NCBI RefSeq assembly: GCF_001049895.1
Contig: NZ_CVPE01000006.1
Span: 62,001 to 126,000 of the forward strand
From: Rubeoparvulum massiliense
GTDB lineage: Bacteria > Bacillota > Bacilli > Rubeoparvulales > Rubeoparvulaceae
Reading direction: 5' to 3'
Length of the DNA: 64,000 nucleotides
Positions 1,690 to 21,449 of the stretch are shown here, one piece after another. Both the position numbers and the translations under genes were made by a program. The stretch's first letter is position 1. Each line of letters starts with the position of its first letter. Below the pieces are notes generated by a model. The model saw only the letters and a list, made by a program, of their open reading frames with translations. It was not told where the DNA came from and ran no database searches.

Positions 1690-1818
1690 GAAACTGGAAT
1701 ATCTACCGAGGGAAGGACATGAGCTGAACCTCAATCAGTAGATATACAGCCAGTAGCGATAGAAGAGATTAAAATGAAGTTTTTCTTCGTTTAATTTTCT
1801 ATTGCTGCTGGTTTTTTT
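1690..1818 (+). ncRNA. Candidate cis-acting leader RNA (riboswitch or antiterminator type), class not recognised
   Basis: Transcription from the promoter at 1637-1664 would give a leader of about 180 nt. The first structure is a closed stem: ATATCTAC (1699-1706) pairs with GTAGATAT (1738-1745), enclosing GAGG (1708-1711)/CCTC (1729-1732). ACTGG (1693-1697) can extend this stem by pairing with CCAGT (1750-1754), which is also the base of the terminator 5' arm. The two states are therefore mutually exclusive: the extended stem would prevent termination. It does not show the conserved motifs of T-box, FMN, TPP, SAM, purine, lysine, glycine, preQ1 or ykkC leaders known to me. Ligand or protein partner is unknown. 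Confidence 0.5.
1750..1818 (+). terminator. Intrinsic terminator (attenuator) in the leader of the homogentisate operon
   Basis: CCAGTAGCGATAGAA (1750-1764) pairs with TTCTATTGCTGCTGG (1797-1811) over 15 bp with two G-U pairs. A second, coaxial stem follows inside (1769-1779 with 1785-1794). Seven T residues (1812-1818) follow the base. It lies after the promoter and 35 bases before the first gene start, so it can only act as an attenuator. Confidence 0.85.
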
Positions 1819-1853: not shown

Positions 1854-2894
1854 ATGGAGTTCGGTTTGTTTACGGTATTTGATAACTATAAAAATTATAA
1901 GGAAGGCTTTGAACGAACACCGGAACAGCTCTTAAATGAGGTATTAGAGCAGTCCATTCTAGCAGATCGTTTAGGATATGATGCTACTTGGTTTGCGGAG
2001 CACCATTTTAGTGAGTATGGAATATTAACCACTCCTCAAACATTTTTTGCAGTTGTAGCGGCAAAAACTCAGAATATCCGTCTAGGTACCGCTATTGTTA
2101 CACTACCTTTTAAAAATCCAATTCAAGTTGCTGAGGATTATGCATTACTGGATGTGTTAAGTAATGGACGCTTAAATCTAGGCTTAGGTAGCGGCTATCT
2201 TCCCCATGAGTTCGCAGGATTTAATGTGGATGGGAAGGATAAGGCATTGCGGTTTAATGATTCTCTTGCAGTAATTGAAAAAGCGTGGAAAGGGGAAAGG
2301 TTCTCACACCAAGGAGATTATTATCAATTTACAGACATCAAGCTGGAAGTCATACCAAAACAGAAAGAAGTACCGCTCTGGATCGGAACATTGAGCAATC
2401 TTGGTGCTAGCTATGTTGGCAAGATGGGTTATAGCATTAGTGGTGTTCCTTATGTAGCTTGTAACTCTATTTCTGAGCTAAAAGAGATTATCGACAATTA
2501 TAAAGAAAATTACCGTCGAGCAGGCCATGATGAAGAAAAAATTACAGTCTCTTTAGCTCTTCATACCTATGTTGCAGAAACAAGGGAAGAAGCGATAGCA
2601 ACAGCGAAGCCACACTTAGATCTCTATCTAGATACAAGAATGTATGGGAAGAGTGCAAAGTATGAAGATTTACGAGACCGAGAGCAAGTTTTAATTGGAG
2701 CGCCAGAAGATGTTATCACCATGTTGAAGAAATACCAGGAAGCAGGCTGTGACCACATTATGATGTTGATGAATTTTGGGGGATTACCACATGAAAAAGT
2801 GATAAAATCCATGGAACTTGTAGCCCAAAAAGTGATGCCAGCATTTCAAAAATCTCAAACAAAAAAAGAACTGGCTACAACAACAAAAGGGTAA
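1854..2894 (+). CDS. LLM-class flavin-dependent monooxygenase, first gene of the homogentisate operon
   Basis: 346 residues of the bacterial luciferase-like TIM-barrel family: N-terminal EFGLFTVFDNY, the typical ADRLGYDATWFAEHHF strand-helix, LGTAIVTLPFKNPIQVAED, NGRLNLGLGSGY, and a C-terminal AGCDHIMMLMNFGGLPHE. Such enzymes use reduced FMN supplied by a separate reductase to hydroxylate or oxidise organic substrates. The next gene is an NAD(P)H:FMN reductase 18 bases away, so the pair probably forms a two-component monooxygenase. Its substrate is unknown; an aromatic acid feeding homogentisate is an inference from context. A clear AGGAGG site precedes the ATG. Confidence 0.85.
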   Translation: MEFGLFTVFDNYKNYKEGFERTPEQLLNEVLEQSILADRLGYDATWFAEHHFSEYGILTTPQTFFAVVAAKTQNIRLGTAIVTLPFKNPIQVAEDYALLDVLSNGRLNLGLGSGYLPHEFAGFNVDGKDKALRFNDSLAVIEKAWKGERFSHQGDYYQFTDIKLEVIPKQKEVPLWIGTLSNLGASYVGKMGYSISGVPYVACNSISELKEIIDNYKENYRRAGHDEEKITVSLALHTYVAETREEAIATAKPHLDLYLDTRMYGKSAKYEDLRDREQVLIGAPEDVITMLKKYQEAGCDHIMMLMNFGGLPHEKVIKSMELVAQKVMPAFQKSQTKKELATTTKG

Positions 2895-2912: not shown

Positions 2913-3467
2913 ATGATGGAGCTTCTCGGTATCTCCGGTACAATTGTTGGCGTAAAAACAGCTATTCTCGTCCAAACCGTTCTAGATGAAGTAAAGAAAC
3001 AACATCCTGAGATTAAAACAAAAATGTTAGATCTAAGGGATTATGACCTGCAGTTCTGTGATGGCAGAAGTGTGAGCGATTATAACGAGGACACTAGGCT
3101 AGTCATTCAAGCAGTGACTGAAGCTGATTTTTATCTAATTGGCACACCGGTTTTCAATTGTTCCATTCCTGCCCCATTAAAAAACCTCATTGATCTAATC
3201 CAACCAACAGTTTTTCGTCATAAGGTGATGGGCTTTGTCGCTAATGGTGGAACATACCAACACTATTTAATGATTGAAAATCAATTGAAGCCCATTGCTT
3301 CTTACTTACGTGCTTATATTGCACCAAGCTATGTCTATGCCAACGTGAGTCATTTCAATGAGCATAACGAGATCGATGATTTGGAGATTGTAACACGTAT
3401 TCAACACTTAGCAGATGAATTGGTTCATATGCAAAAGAGGCTGGGTCAACCACTGGTTACACAATGA
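2913..3467 (+). CDS. NAD(P)H-dependent FMN reductase, flavodoxin-like fold
   Basis: 184 residues. The N-terminal GISGTIVGVKTA loop is the phosphate-binding loop of the NADPH-dependent FMN reductase family (SsuE/ArsH-type). IGTPVFNCSIPAPLKNLIDL at about residues 75-95 is the family's flavin-side signature. It would provide reduced FMN to the flavin monooxygenase encoded just upstream. The start is either of two adjacent ATGs (2913 or 2916) after an AAAGGAG site. Length agrees with SsuE-like reductases. Role in aromatic catabolism is inferred from operon position. Confidence 0.85.
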   Translation: MMELLGISGTIVGVKTAILVQTVLDEVKKQHPEIKTKMLDLRDYDLQFCDGRSVSDYNEDTRLVIQAVTEADFYLIGTPVFNCSIPAPLKNLIDLIQPTVFRHKVMGFVANGGTYQHYLMIENQLKPIASYLRAYIAPSYVYANVSHFNEHNEIDDLEIVTRIQHLADELVHMQKRLGQPLVTQ

Positions 3468-3505
3468 AAAGACTATAATTCACTAATTAGAAGGGAAGTG
3501 ATTGA

Positions 3506-4462
3506 ATGAAAGGTCTACCAAGCCTTCACGCCTTTTTAAGCCACTTGATCGATTATGCAGGCCTTTTTCCACCTGCCAATTTAGAATTAGATGCTGCCAT
3601 TCAAAATCACTTCAAATATGTTACGAGTGAAGATTCGTGGATATTGGGCCCATTCATTATCCCAATTACGAAAATCCATGAGCTTCAAGCCTATGCAGAT
3701 TTATATAAAGATCATCAAGTACTAAGACTCTCAGTTGTCGGTCGTAAAAGTGGAACAGAAGCTGAGTGCTTACTTCAACTTCAGGAAGATTTAGAACAGA
3801 TTCAATATTTTATGAACCAGCAACAAGATTGGGTAAAGGTTGAAACATTGGAAGTACCCTTGCCACCCATTGTACCAAGTCAGTATTTACTACAGAAAAT
3901 GATGGATGGGGCAAAGAGGATTGGTGTGAATCTATTCTGCGAGGTAGCTTTTCTTGAAAGAGATGATTGGCACCAATATCTCACCAATAGTATCGAAGCA
4001 ATCACTCATTTCAACGCTACACACCATGAGCCACTAGGTGTAAAAATTCGAACAGGTGGCATAAAAGCAGAGATGATACCGAGTACCAAACAGGTTGCTC
4101 AGGGGATCTCATTATGTAGTCAAAGAAAACTACCACTAAAATTCACGGCAGGATTACATCATCCTATTCGTATGTACAGGGATGAGGTTCATGCGGAAAT
4201 GCATGGTTTCCTCAACATATTCATGGCAAGTATGCTCGCTTATCATTACAGTCTTGATGCCGATGTGATTGAAGATATTATCTCTGATGAACGAGATGAT
4301 CACTTCGTCATCCACGATGATCACTTAGCTTGGAAAGAACTTCACCTTACTTCTCAAGAAGTGAGAGCGCTGCGAAATCAATTTGTTCGATCATTTGGGA
4401 GCTGCAGCTTTGATGAACCAAGAGACGAATTACTGGAACTACTCAATAAAAGGGGGCCATGA
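3506..4462 (+). CDS. Conserved protein of unknown function linked to fumarylacetoacetase
   Basis: 318 residues. I recognise the opening pattern (LIDYAGLFPPANL...A...Y..Y...DSWILGPFIIP) from uncharacterised proteins often encoded beside fumarylacetoacetase, but no function is known to me. Alternating strand-helix blocks, with GVNLFCEVAF, GVKIRTGG and LPLKFTAGLHHP near the expected barrel strand ends, suggest a TIM-barrel-like fold; His and Arg residues in the last two motifs could bind a carboxylated substrate. The TGA at 4460-4462 is one base before the GTG of fumarylacetoacetase, so the two are translationally coupled. The operon lacks a glutathione-type maleylacetoacetate isomerase, leaving that step open for this protein. 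Confidence 0.75.
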   Translation: MKGLPSLHAFLSHLIDYAGLFPPANLELDAAIQNHFKYVTSEDSWILGPFIIPITKIHELQAYADLYKDHQVLRLSVVGRKSGTEAECLLQLQEDLEQIQYFMNQQQDWVKVETLEVPLPPIVPSQYLLQKMMDGAKRIGVNLFCEVAFLERDDWHQYLTNSIEAITHFNATHHEPLGVKIRTGGIKAEMIPSTKQVAQGISLCSQRKLPLKFTAGLHHPIRMYRDEVHAEMHGFLNIFMASMLAYHYSLDADVIEDIISDERDDHFVIHDDHLAWKELHLTSQEVRALRNQFVRSFGSCSFDEPRDELLELLNKRGP

Positions 4463-4463
4463 G

Positions 4464-5765
4464 GTGAAATCATTTATTGCTGTGGATGAAAAATCTCACT
4501 TTCCGATTCAAAATCTACCATATGGTATATTTAGCAAGCAAGATGATCCACATCTTCGAGTAGGAGTAGCGATTGGCGATTATGTACTGGATTTATCCAT
4601 TCTTGAAGATAAGGGCTTCTATAAAGATGCGTTGGATCAGAATACGAGGGTATTTAATCGTTCTACACTTAATCCCTTGATGGAGCTTGGCCGAGATGTC
4701 TGGCGTAAAGTACGGAAAATTACGCAACAGTTACTGTCAGCTGATGAATCCCAACTCCGAGACAATATGGAGTTGCGTAAACAAGTACTTGTTCCAATGG
4801 AGAGTGTGAAACTCCATCTACCCGTCACCATTGGTGATTACACCGATTTTTATGCTTCGAAAGAGCATGCAATGAATGTAGGTACGATGTTTCGTGGGAA
4901 AGAGCATGCATTGATGCCGAACTGGGTCTATCTACCTGTGGGATACCACGGGAGAGCTAGTTCAGTTGTTCTCAGTGGCACTCGCATTCGCCGGCCTTGG
5001 GGTCAGATTAAATTAGCGGATCATCCGCCTATTTTTGCACCATGTAGACAGCTAGATTTTGAATTGGAAATCGGTTTTATTATGGGCACTGGAAATAAGC
5101 AAGGAGAACCGATTCCGATTGCAGAGGCTGAAGAACATCTCTTTGGAGCGGTATTGCTCAATGATTGGAGTGCCCGTGATATTCAGTCATGGGAGTACCA
5201 GCCACTGGGTCCCTTCTTAGGAAAAAATTTTGCTACTTCTATCTCTCCTTGGGTAATTCCTTTGGAAGCATTGGAACATTTTCGTGTCCAAGGACCCGTT
5301 CAAGATCCTGAGCCACTAGAGTATCTGCAACAAGGGCAACCAGGTTCATTTCACATTCAACTTGAAGTGCATCTCCGAAGTAAAGCGATGAATCATGCAA
5401 AACCAATCAGTGCAACCAATTATCGCTATTTATATTGGAGCATCGCTCAACAGATTGCTCATCATACTATTGGTGGATGTAATCTGAATCCTGGTGACTT
5501 ACTCGCTTCAGGTACCATTAGTGGACCCGAAAAAGAGACAAGGGGTAGCATGTTAGAATTAACCTGGCGAGGCGATGAACCGATCCACATCAATGAGGAA
5601 GAGACAAGGGAATGGCTGGAAGATGGAGATGAGCTAATCCTCACAGGATGGTGTCAAGGTGAGGGCTATCGTGTGGGCTTTGGCGAAGTGGTAGGAATCA
5701 TAGAACCAGCCCTAGCGAAGGATGAGGTCTTACGGAAGAAGGCTGTAACTGAGAATCATAAATAG
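4464..5765 (+). CDS. fahA: Fumarylacetoacetase
   Basis: 433 residues from the GTG at 4464. This start is preferred over in-frame ATGs further upstream because AGGGGG lies at the right distance and the protein then begins with the family-typical KSFIAVDE.SHFPIQNLPYG. It hydrolyses fumarylacetoacetate to fumarate and acetoacetate, the last step of tyrosine/homogentisate degradation. Visible active-site motifs: GDYTDFYASKEHAMNVG (metal Asp and catalytic His), LDFELEIGF (metal Glu pair), LNDWSARDIQ (metal Asp), LGPFLGKNF and ASGTISGPE (substrate loop). Length matches the single-domain-plus-SH3-like N-terminal family. Cytoplasmic. Confidence 0.95.
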   Translation: MKSFIAVDEKSHFPIQNLPYGIFSKQDDPHLRVGVAIGDYVLDLSILEDKGFYKDALDQNTRVFNRSTLNPLMELGRDVWRKVRKITQQLLSADESQLRDNMELRKQVLVPMESVKLHLPVTIGDYTDFYASKEHAMNVGTMFRGKEHALMPNWVYLPVGYHGRASSVVLSGTRIRRPWGQIKLADHPPIFAPCRQLDFELEIGFIMGTGNKQGEPIPIAEAEEHLFGAVLLNDWSARDIQSWEYQPLGPFLGKNFATSISPWVIPLEALEHFRVQGPVQDPEPLEYLQQGQPGSFHIQLEVHLRSKAMNHAKPISATNYRYLYWSIAQQIAHHTIGGCNLNPGDLLASGTISGPEKETRGSMLELTWRGDEPIHINEEETREWLEDGDELILTGWCQGEGYRVGFGEVVGIIEPALAKDEVLRKKAVTENHK

Positions 5766-5788: not shown

Positions 5789-6952
5789 ATGGCAAGGTAT
5801 CATCAAATGGGAACAATCCCGCAAAAAAGGCACTCGGTTTTTCGAAAAGAGGATCAAACCTTATATCGAGAGCAAGTCATGGGTACGAAAGGATTTTCAG
5901 GTATTCAATCGATCCTGTATCATCAACATCCTCCGACCCAGTTTTTCAAATCTAGTTTATTTGGTCATTGCAGTATAGAGTTCGAAGAGCCAAGTGTACT
6001 TCGCCCACGTCACTTTTATACGGATCGTGTAAACAAAAAGCTCCATGATGCTGTGATGGGAAGGGAATACATCCTTGGGAATGAAGATTTGTTCATTGGG
6101 GTTGTTAATCCTACGGAGTCGATGGAGTATTTTTACCGTAATAGTAATGGCGATGAACTTCTGTTTGTTCATCGTGGTACGGGAAAAATTGAGTCAATAT
6201 TCGGAACTCTTCACTATCAACCTGGCGACTATCTTGTGATTCCTATTGGTACCATTTATCGCATAGAACCGACCACAGAGGATTCGAAGTTTCTGGTAAT
6301 TGAGACGAATAGTTGGATTACAACACCTAAGAGATACAGAAATGAGTTTGGTCAACTCCTTGAGCATAGTCCTTTCTGCGAAAGAGATATCCACGGTCCT
6401 GAAAAGCTTGTCACCCATACAGAACAGGGAGAGTACGAGGTTCGAACAAAGTCAGGAGAGTATCTACATTCCCATTTTTATGAGCATCATCCTCTTGATG
6501 TTGTAGGTTGGGATGGTTTCTTATATCCTTGGAAACTCAATATAGCTGACTTTGAGCCTATTACAGGGCGTATTCATCAGCCACCACCTGTTCATCAGAC
6601 CTTTGAAGGTCATAATTTTGTTGTTTGCTCATTTGTTCCACGCTTATATGATTATCATCCTGAGGCCATTCCTGCACCTTTCTATCATAGCAATATTGAT
6701 AGTGATGAGGTTTTGTATTACGTGGAAGGAAATTTTATGAGTCGGAAGGGAATTCAAGCAGAATCGCTGACACTTCACCCAGCTGGTATTCCCCATGGTC
6801 CACATCCAGGAAAAGTGGAAGAGAGTATCGGTAAGAAAGAGACTTTCGAGCTTGCTGTGATGATTGATACATTTCGTCCTTTAAAGGTTGTTCAAACGGA
6901 GCAGCAACTTGAAGATGGAGGCTATCAATATAGCTGGCTTGAGAAACGCTAG
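5789..6952 (+). CDS. hmgA: Homogentisate 1,2-dioxygenase
   Basis: 387 residues, shorter than the roughly 440 of human and pseudomonad enzymes but typical of the Gram-positive branch. It opens the ring of homogentisate with O2 and Fe(II) to give maleylacetoacetate. Cupin strands are visible; iron-ligand regions are FYHSNIDSDEVLYYVEG (His and acidic residues) and GIPHGPHPG (His), equivalent to YHRNCMSE and TPHGP of the human enzyme. It follows fumarylacetoacetase by 23 bases with a GAGGAGG site. Together with the upstream genes it forms a homogentisate degradation operon; no 4-hydroxyphenylpyruvate dioxygenase is present in the window. Confidence 0.95.
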   Translation: MARYHQMGTIPQKRHSVFRKEDQTLYREQVMGTKGFSGIQSILYHQHPPTQFFKSSLFGHCSIEFEEPSVLRPRHFYTDRVNKKLHDAVMGREYILGNEDLFIGVVNPTESMEYFYRNSNGDELLFVHRGTGKIESIFGTLHYQPGDYLVIPIGTIYRIEPTTEDSKFLVIETNSWITTPKRYRNEFGQLLEHSPFCERDIHGPEKLVTHTEQGEYEVRTKSGEYLHSHFYEHHPLDVVGWDGFLYPWKLNIADFEPITGRIHQPPPVHQTFEGHNFVVCSFVPRLYDYHPEAIPAPFYHSNIDSDEVLYYVEGNFMSRKGIQAESLTLHPAGIPHGPHPGKVEESIGKKETFELAVMIDTFRPLKVVQTEQQLEDGGYQYSWLEKR

Positions 6953-6978: not shown

Positions 6979-8319
6979 ATGAGTCAAATTGTACAGGAAG
7001 TGCCACAAGCGAAAGCAGTTGAGGCTTCAAAGGCTGGAGTTCCCCCATCCTTAATGTATTTCATTCTGTTCATCTGCTTTTTCTGTATCTTAGCAGATGG
7101 TTACGATTTGGGTATTTATGGTGCAGTGCTTCCTAGTCTATTAGATTATCAACCATGGGGCTTATCAGCAGCTCAAGCAGGAGCCATTGGCAGCTATCCG
7201 CTCTTTGGTATGTTGATCGGTGCCATCTGCATAGGCACCAGTACCGATGTGCTAGGAAGAAAATGGACCTTAGTCGTGTGTGTGAGTCTTTTTTCGATTA
7301 CGATGATCATCTGCGCATTGGCTACATCGCCGGGAATATTTGGTCTATTTCGTTTTATCGGAGGCATTGGTTTAGGTGGTGTGATTCCTACTGCATCTGC
7401 ACTTGTCATTGAATATTCTCCATCCCATCGTCGTTCTCTAAATTATGTGCTAATGTTTTCTGGTTACTCATTTGGTACTGTACTTGGTGCGGTCTTAGCT
7501 ATTTTATTACTCGATTCGTTCGGCTGGAGGGGAATGTTTTGGATTGGTGGACTACCATTACTAATCGTTCCAGTAATGATAAAATACTTACCTGAATCGG
7601 TTAGCTTTCTCTTAACTCGACAGCGTGAAGAGGAGGCAAAACAGATTTGCCAACGTTATCAAATTGATCTATCTTTTTTCACAGAGCAAATTAGCAAAGA
7701 GGATCAGCAGTCCAGCAAGAAGAAACAGTCTGTCCAAGTACTTTTCTCAACTAATTATCTGAGAGCAACCTTATTTTTCTGGCTAACCTATATCATGGGC
7801 TTTTATTTAGTCTATGGTCTCAATACTTGGCTACCACAAATTATGCGAGAATTAGGTTATTCACTCAATTCGAGCTTATCATTTTTGCTAGTGATGAATC
7901 TGACAGCAGGAGTAGGGGCATTACTAGCTGGTTCGATCGCTGATCGCTGGGGTTCCAAGCGAGTGATTGCCATCTCTTATTCGCTTGCTTCTGTAAGCGC
8001 TTTCCTACTAACTCTCGGTGCTCCACCTATTGTAGTCACATATTTACTAGTGGGAATTGCAGGCTTTGGTTCTGTAGGTAATACACAAATATTGAATGCT
8101 TTTGTTTCCAAGTATTATCCAGCGCAGGCAAGGGCGACGGCATTAGGATGGGGACTTGGCATTGGTAGGATTGGTGCAATTTCTGGACCGTTGCTCATCG
8201 GTTTCCTCGTTAGCCTCAAGGTCGATTTCATCTGGAGTTTTTATACATTTGTGATAGCAGGTTTTATTGCTGCTATGGGGATGATATTTATACCAGCGAA
8301 GAAGGGCGAAGTGGTGTAG
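6979..8319 (+). CDS. MFS transporter, aromatic acid:H+ symporter type
   Basis: 446 residues with about 12 transmembrane segments split by a hydrophilic loop near residue 230. The first helix carries ADGYDLGIYGAVLP, the D-G-Y/F-D signature of aromatic acid:proton symporters such as PcaK and BenK. The loop-2 motif is GTSTDVLGRKWT and the loop-8 motif is AGSIADRWGSKR. As the last gene of the homogentisate operon (26 bases after hmgA, followed by a strong terminator), it probably imports homogentisate, a hydroxyphenylacetate or a related aromatic acid. The exact substrate cannot be read from sequence. Confidence 0.88.
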   Translation: MSQIVQEVPQAKAVEASKAGVPPSLMYFILFICFFCILADGYDLGIYGAVLPSLLDYQPWGLSAAQAGAIGSYPLFGMLIGAICIGTSTDVLGRKWTLVVCVSLFSITMIICALATSPGIFGLFRFIGGIGLGGVIPTASALVIEYSPSHRRSLNYVLMFSGYSFGTVLGAVLAILLLDSFGWRGMFWIGGLPLLIVPVMIKYLPESVSFLLTRQREEEAKQICQRYQIDLSFFTEQISKEDQQSSKKKQSVQVLFSTNYLRATLFFWLTYIMGFYLVYGLNTWLPQIMRELGYSLNSSLSFLLVMNLTAGVGALLAGSIADRWGSKRVIAISYSLASVSAFLLTLGAPPIVVTYLLVGIAGFGSVGNTQILNAFVSKYYPAQARATALGWGLGIGRIGAISGPLLIGFLVSLKVDFIWSFYTFVIAGFIAAMGMIFIPAKKGEVV

Positions 8320-8325
8320 GAGGCT

Positions 8326-8375
8326 GTGGCCATTTCTTCAGCATATTAAGATGCTGAAGAAGTGGCCATTTTTTT
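8326..8375 (+). terminator. Terminator of the homogentisate operon
   Basis: TGGCCATTTCTTCAGCAT (8327-8344) pairs with ATGCTGAAGAAGTGGCCA (8351-8368) over 18 bp with one G-U pair and is followed by seven T residues. Stop of the transporter is seven bases before. Confidence 0.92.
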
Positions 8376-8574: not shown

Positions 8575-10332
8575 ATGAAAAAACAGATCATCGTTCTACT
8601 ACTTATGATTTTTTTAATTGCACCCCAGGTTAACGCAGAGTCTGCCCTGACAGATATTAACGGTCATTGGGCGGAGTCGAATATTCAGAACTTAGTAGGG
8701 TTAAACATTATCTCAGGTTATCCAGATTCAACCTTTCGCCCAGATCAAAATATATCGAGGGCAGCCTTTGTTAAAATATTGATCATCGCTTCTGAAAATA
8801 TTGAGAAGTATGATACGACATTAGAGAAGAGCGTTTTCAATGACGTCTCTCAATCTTACTGGGGCTATCCATATATTATGAAAGCTGTTGAGAAGGGGAT
8901 CATTATTCCTAGTGATTACCCTAATTCATCCTTTTCTCCTGATACAAACATCACTCGTTTAGAGATGGCCATGATGGTTTCACGATTGCTTGGGAATGAT
9001 ACGAATACCCTTCAAGCTGAATTTACAGACAATAATCAAATCCCTGCATATGCTCTAAAGAATGTTTCTCTTGTAGTTAATAAAGGGATCATTCAAGGGT
9101 TTCCAGATGGATCATTTGCTCCTTATAGTCCAGCAACAAGAGCACAAGCAACTGTAATCATCGAGCGTTATCTCAATCATATAAGTCAAAATTCTAGCAA
9201 TCTAAGCAATCCAACAGATCCTAAAATTGAGAATCCAGTCGATAAAGGGGGCAATGCCGAGTTATCAGCAAAAGATATCGTAGCACGTAATGATAATAAG
9301 GTTGTCCTAATCAAAATCTTTGATGAAGCTCAACGTGAAATTAGTGGTGGAAGTGGTGTTTTTGTCAAAGAGGGCATACTCGTAACCAATTATCATGTAA
9401 TCGAGGGAGCAAGCTATGCGGTTATTAATACTGTAGACAATAGCACTTATGCCATTGAAGGCGTGGTTGCTTATGATCCAGAAAAGGACTTAGCTCTGAT
9501 AAAGACAACCACTCTTCCCAAGATTGCACCTGTAACCATTGGGAATGCTGGTAAGCTAAGTAAGGGAGATAAAATTATTACGATAGGTAGTCCTTATGGT
9601 CTGAAGAATACTGTCTCAGAAGGATTAGTAAGTGGATTTCGAAATGATGGTTATGTTGACTTAATTCAAATTAATGCACCTATCGATCATGGAAGTTCGG
9701 GCGGGGGATTATTTAATACTAGAGGGGAGCTTGTCGGAATCACTTCATCTGGTAATACCACAAGCGTGGCGGATTTAAATTTTGCGATTCCGATTAATTA
9801 TATCAATTCCTGGCTATCTGATTTAACTAATAAGAGATTCGCAAATATTGCTTCTACTTCACTGGCTGACTTTAATCCGTCTCAAGTGAATTACGAAATG
9901 GAAGAAGTAAATGAAGAAAACCTTCAACGATTATCAGACATATTAACTGAGTATGTTTCAGTCATTGAAACCTCAGAGGGAAACATTTATCTGAGTCAAT
10001 ATGATGCGTTTTTTCTTGATGACAATAGTACAATCGGAATTAATGCTGCAATCGATTTAGAAAATTACAAGTTTTACATTACCAACTTTGATGCAATATA
10101 TGAGGATTTATCAAATTATGCCTATGAGATGGGTACATTTTTCAATGAGGTTTTTCCAAATAAAAACTATAGTTTTATACTTTTCTTTCAAGATTATTCT
10201 TCTATCTTTCCTTCTGTTTTTGATCCGTCAGATTACGATTATATCCCAGAGAAAGATAGTTGGCTGATTACACATGCGATTATTAAGGTGGCAAAAATTG
10301 ATGGTCAGTTCTATGGAGATATTCTACCATAA
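8575..10332 (+). CDS. Secreted SLH-anchored trypsin-like (S1C/HtrA-type) serine protease
   Basis: 585 residues. A signal peptide (residues 1-21, ending VNA) is followed by three S-layer homology repeats (about 25-70, 85-135, 150-200; e.g. HWAESNIQNLVGLNIISGYPD), then a Ser/Asn-rich linker (205-225) and a trypsin-like domain (about 232-415). The catalytic triad is His274 (TNYHV), Asp305 (DLALIK) and Ser375 (GSSGGG). The last 165 residues form an acidic aromatic-rich domain I do not recognise; the PDZ domain usual for HtrA is absent. It is expected on the cell surface, bound to secondary wall polymer. A monocistronic unit, preceded by a 255-base gap with no clear structure. Confidence 0.9.
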   Translation: MKKQIIVLLLMIFLIAPQVNAESALTDINGHWAESNIQNLVGLNIISGYPDSTFRPDQNISRAAFVKILIIASENIEKYDTTLEKSVFNDVSQSYWGYPYIMKAVEKGIIIPSDYPNSSFSPDTNITRLEMAMMVSRLLGNDTNTLQAEFTDNNQIPAYALKNVSLVVNKGIIQGFPDGSFAPYSPATRAQATVIIERYLNHISQNSSNLSNPTDPKIENPVDKGGNAELSAKDIVARNDNKVVLIKIFDEAQREISGGSGVFVKEGILVTNYHVIEGASYAVINTVDNSTYAIEGVVAYDPEKDLALIKTTTLPKIAPVTIGNAGKLSKGDKIITIGSPYGLKNTVSEGLVSGFRNDGYVDLIQINAPIDHGSSGGGLFNTRGELVGITSSGNTTSVADLNFAIPINYINSWLSDLTNKRFANIASTSLADFNPSQVNYEMEEVNEENLQRLSDILTEYVSVIETSEGNIYLSQYDAFFLDDNSTIGINAAIDLENYKFYITNFDAIYEDLSNYAYEMGTFFNEVFPNKNYSFILFFQDYSSIFPSVFDPSDYDYIPEKDSWLITHAIIKVAKIDGQFYGDILP

Positions 10333-21185: not shown

Positions 21186-21449
21186 TTCCCTCAGGTAGTA
21201 AGGACGTTCTGCTTAATCGTAGAGAATTAGTCACATTCAACTCTTAAATCCAATGGAAAACCCGTACGACACGCTTATAATATAAAATATTGGAATAAGA
21301 TTTGACCTATTATGCCAACAATTGAATATCTCCGAGCTTTTCATCCTAAAGGATTCCAATGGATGGATCGCCTGAGCTGTCTGCTCACAGGGTATGATTG
21401 GAAACAGTTATACCTCCCGTTTTGGAAAGGAGAAAGGATTCTACATAGG

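Follow-up and report, generated by a model that had tools for sequence, protein, structure and literature searches.

A family of predicted TIM-barrel proteins encoded beside fumarylacetoacetase is a candidate for the glutathione-free maleylacetoacetate isomerase

In the homogentisate pathway of tyrosine breakdown, the cis-trans isomerization of maleylacetoacetate to fumarylacetoacetate is textbook glutathione chemistry. The step is carried out by MaiA, a zeta-class glutathione S-transferase (TIGR01262) that probably acts by addition of the glutathione thiol to the double bond of the substrate, whereupon fumarylacetoacetase (FahA) splits the product into fumarate and acetoacetate. However, many organisms that carry the rest of the pathway have neither glutathione nor MaiA. 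A mycothiol-dependent maleylpyruvate isomerase (DinB-type) appears to perform the equivalent isomerization on a related diketo acid in organisms without glutathione. Here we describe an unnamed gene, found next to fahA in hundreds of bacteria and some archaea, that most likely encodes the missing isomerase, although the activity is inferred from genomic and structural evidence only.

The gene was encountered in a 64,000-nucleotide stretch of Rubeoparvulum massiliense DNA (the window). A first-pass annotation of this sequence noted that an operon with homogentisate dioxygenase and fumarylacetoacetase genes lacks a zeta-type isomerase, and proposed that a 318-residue orphan protein translationally coupled to FahA may fill the missing step. 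The relevant features of the window, in order, are as follows.

1299-1646, a small DUF3870 protein that precedes the operon
1692-1818 (+), leader RNA
1854-2894 (+), luciferase-like flavin monooxygenase (PF00296)
2913-3467 (+), NADPH-dependent FMN reductase-like protein (PF03358)
3506-4462 (+), proposed glutathione-independent maleylacetoacetate isomerase, 318 aa, predicted TIM barrel
4464-5765 (+), fahA, fumarylacetoacetase, with a GTG start
5789-6952 (+), divergent homogentisate 1,2-dioxygenase-like cupin
6979-8319 (+), MFS transporter of the aromatic acid/H+ symport type
8326-8369 (+), strong terminator-like hairpin closing the operon
8575-10332, predicted trypsin-like protease with S-layer homology domains, just after the operon
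21318-21448 (+), molybdenum cofactor riboswitch (RF01055, 90.9 bits)

The observation is confirmed. The TGA of the 318-aa ORF ends at 4462 and the fahA GTG begins at 4464, such that one base lies between them. The fahA product scores 599.8 bits against TIGR01266 (cut-off 375.3). The hmgA-like cupin passes the Pfam HgmA_N threshold (47.5 bits, cut-off 20.2) but is far below that of TIGR01015 (61.7 against 510.75), although relatives in the same kind of operon are annotated as homogentisate 1,2-dioxygenase. The best model for the transporter is TIGR00895 (330.5 bits), which is below its cut-off of 418.55. The genome (2.84 Mb) also has a 4-hydroxyphenylpyruvate dioxygenase (hppD) at positions 3423-4481 of its contig C6, about 61 kb away, whereas no maiA was found in it even at E<=10. 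Luciferase-like monooxygenase and FMN reductase genes are likewise paired in two other fahA loci, designated L014 and L020, in which no hppD is present in the locus. This pair is perhaps an alternative, flavin-dependent source of homogentisate.

The operon is preceded by a leader RNA with an aptamer-like stem whose 3′ strand also opens a terminator hairpin, and which is a candidate riboswitch or attenuator. A covariance model finds this RNA in eight places beyond those it was built from, counting near-duplicates. Over 12 distinct copies, 96.5% of cells are paired and the covariation score is 0.302, against 0.193 in shuffles. The RNA is not in Rfam. Copies occur in L014 (1071-1135, 1273-1333 and 3755-3819; in tandem), in L020 (3684-3748 and 5140-5205), and in three further loci (L186, L188 and L191). 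The genes that follow include the same flavin monooxygenase, an FAD synthetase homologue, an ABC substrate-binding protein and the aromatic-acid transporter, and the DUF3870 protein also lies near the leader RNAs in L014 (3309-3635) and L020 (4744-5061).

We next asked whether the 318-aa protein has relatives. It has no match in Pfam, NCBIfam or PDB sequences, either alone or as a profile. A scan of the genome collection with the single protein found nothing, because its peptide patterns were not conserved, and a scan of a phylum of 398 genomes found only the protein itself. The first relatives were obtained by a tblastn search of plasmids, which found 24 records: Priestia (43% identity), a cyanobacterium, Rhodococcus, Streptomyces, Pseudonocardia, Nonomuraea and Tsukamurella (24-33%). 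In every annotated locus read, the gene is labeled a hypothetical protein and is directly upstream of fahA, often with hmgA and hppD. A profile of 12 members then matched 557 places in one-per-species genomes, which is a lower bound. The best 80 come from Bacillota, Bacteroidota, Rhodothermota, Balneolota, Ignavibacteriota, Chlorobiota, Planctomycetota, Verrucomicrobiota, Acidobacteriota, Chloroflexota, Armatimonadota, Gemmatimonadota, Actinomycetota, Cyanobacteria, several candidate phyla, Marine Group II/III archaea and a Heimdall archaeon. Thus, the protein is neither a lone orphan nor a Firmicutes peculiarity. It is also carried by cyanobacteria, although they generally make glutathione. 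Among the 77 loci not cut by a contig end, fahA follows on the same strand in 69, whereas eight lack fahA nearby.

To evaluate the proposed replacement of MaiA, we examined co-occurrence in draws made on fahA rather than on the family. In a phylum of 58 genomes, 19 have fahA (one in fragments), of which 12 have the family and the other 7 have maiA over cut-off, and none has both or neither (Fisher P 2e-5, ignoring kinship). In Bacilli, 10 of 300 genomes have fahA, and all 10 have the family and none has maiA. In Actinomycetota, 21 of 198 genomes have fahA, of which 10 have the family and 11 do not, and none has maiA. In Bacteroidota, 75 of 198 genomes have fahA, and 30 of these have a family member, compared with 0 of the 123 genomes without fahA. 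The 30 fahA-bearing Bacteroidota genomes checked for maiA had none. Furthermore, none of 30 fahA-negative genomes from the first three draws has the family, and the gene is directly upstream of fahA in all 32 family-positive genomes of those draws. The fact that 11 of 21 fahA-bearing Actinomycetota and 45 of 75 fahA-bearing Bacteroidota lack the family, and that those checked lack maiA too, indicates that the step can also be solved otherwise; no recurrent neighbor of fahA was found in the few such genomes examined. Of 49 genomes chosen for carrying the family, none has maiA over cut-off and 41 have no hit to that model at all. On a quick FahA tree of 117 sequences, the three partner states need 11 changes, and starred branches force at least 3 changes of the maiA label, and so the partner has been exchanged several times. 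In the Sphingobium and Acinetobacter plasmid loci read, maiA occupies the slot beside fahA, whereas it is not beside fahA in the Paracoccus locus read.

AlphaFold2 with 79 natural sequences yields a confident model (pLDDT 96.6, pTM 0.93) with eight strands (15-17, 47-53, 73-78, 110-118, 142-146, 178-182, 211-214 and 294-299) alternating with helices, which is a TIM barrel. The residues invariant over 90 members are D16, A18, P22, P23, E116, K180, R182, G184, G185, P192, K212, T214, G216, L217, H218, G234, G298, C300 and P305. The polar ones lie on or just after strands 1, 4, 6, 7 and 8, and E146 on strand 5 is nearly invariant. The first-pass annotation had singled out the strings GVKIRTGG and FTAGLHHP as barrel-like strand motifs with His and Arg. 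These lie on strands 6 and 7 of the predicted barrel, and the invariance of K180, R182, G184, G185, K212, T214, G216, L217 and H218 in them is far beyond chance. The codons of the residues considered most closely below are located in the window as follows.

4043-4051 (+), codons of invariant Lys180 and Arg182 (barrel strand 6)
4139-4159 (+), codons of Lys212 to His218, motif KFTAGLH (strand 7 and its loop), of which K212, T214, G216, L217 and H218 are invariant
4403-4405 (+), codon of invariant Cys300, just after strand 8, the proposed nucleophile

A natural control is provided by six more Bacteroidota genomes that have only a low-scoring family member, far from fahA. The two such paralogues read (locus L149, 5383-6360, and locus L151, 5430-6407) have N for D16, E or K for R182, N for H218, and T or S for C300, but keep E116, K180 and K212.

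Every genomic prediction that could be tested held, namely coupling to fahA, absence of maiA, co-occurrence with fahA, clean exclusion of maiA within one phylum, and an enzyme-like barrel with invariant polar residues. The interpretation offered in the first-pass annotation is therefore supported, and we hold with good confidence, in the absence of any biochemical measurement, that the protein is the maleylacetoacetate cis-trans isomerase of organisms without the glutathione-dependent MaiA. It probably needs no free thiol, although this too is inferred. An invariant cysteine at the barrel mouth in the protein that takes the place of MaiA suggests the same chemistry with an internal thiol. In this more tentative mechanism, the thiol of Cys300 adds to the cis double bond of maleylacetoacetate; the bond becomes single, rotates, and is eliminated as the trans isomer. 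Lys180, helped by Lys212, Glu116 and Glu146, would activate the neighboring ketone, perhaps as a Schiff base as in class I aldolases, and Arg182 and His218 would bind a carboxylate or move protons.

Other explanations are unlikely. The protein could assist FahA as an assembly partner, in metal or substrate delivery, or as a tautomerase of its substrate, with isomerization being spontaneous or using another thiol such as bacillithiol or mycothiol. Consistent with this, the closest tie is to fahA rather than to hmgA or hppD. However, FahA in the maiA-bearing genomes of the same phylum does without the protein (7 of 7), a helper of FahA should not be exclusive with maiA, and the invariant residues look like an active site. 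Slightly less likely still is a bypass, wherein the protein is a hydrolase or lyase that cleaves maleylacetoacetate directly. The resemblance of the fold to class I aldolases, with a weak register of lysines and acids, would fit such a role, but fahA is retained beside the gene almost everywhere, and a bypass would make fahA dispensable. A role elsewhere in aromatic degradation, on side products or an upper step, is suggested only by the variable operons with their other catabolic genes and is very unlikely, as the gene follows fahA rather than a given upper pathway and is exclusive with maiA.

A family that no family library names, sitting in the right slot, gives this gap in the pathway a candidate gene and an active-site hypothesis. 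If the assignment is correct, it would change hypothetical protein annotations in many phyla. Although the reaction is known, the protein family, its predicted fold for this job and its likely independence of a thiol cofactor are new as far as could be determined; no paper on this family or on a gene for a glutathione-independent maleylacetoacetate isomerase was found in a literature search that did not cover most subscription journals. It is about as likely as not that a cofactor-free TIM-barrel isomerase with a built-in cysteine and an activating lysine is a major solution for this step across bacteria and archaea, with glutathione-dependent MaiA being the alternative used mainly by glutathione makers.

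The predicted fold gives no decisive clue to function. A PDB fold search returned only generic barrels, as did a search among viral models. The best PDB match is deoxyribose-phosphate aldolase DeoC (2a4a, E 1.7e-4), a class I aldolase barrel of another pathway with no matching Cys300 motif. A local profile alignment with seven DeoC proteins places K180 and K212 on the DeoC strand-6 and strand-7 lysines and E116 near its strand-4 aspartate, but the similarity is not significant (hhalign probability 1.7%) and is only a lead toward a Schiff base. Relative to the mycothiol-dependent maleylpyruvate isomerase, the protein has no Pfam hit at E<=1, none is significant in 12 members, and the predicted structure is a barrel rather than a helix bundle. 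With MaiA the protein shares the slot beside fahA, the proposed reaction and the proposed thiol chemistry. It has no NCBIfam hit at E<=1, is predicted to form a TIM barrel instead of the thioredoxin-like plus helical GST fold, and probably relies on a built-in cysteine instead of glutathione, and would be a non-homologous replacement in which an enzyme builds in the thiol that others borrow from a cofactor.
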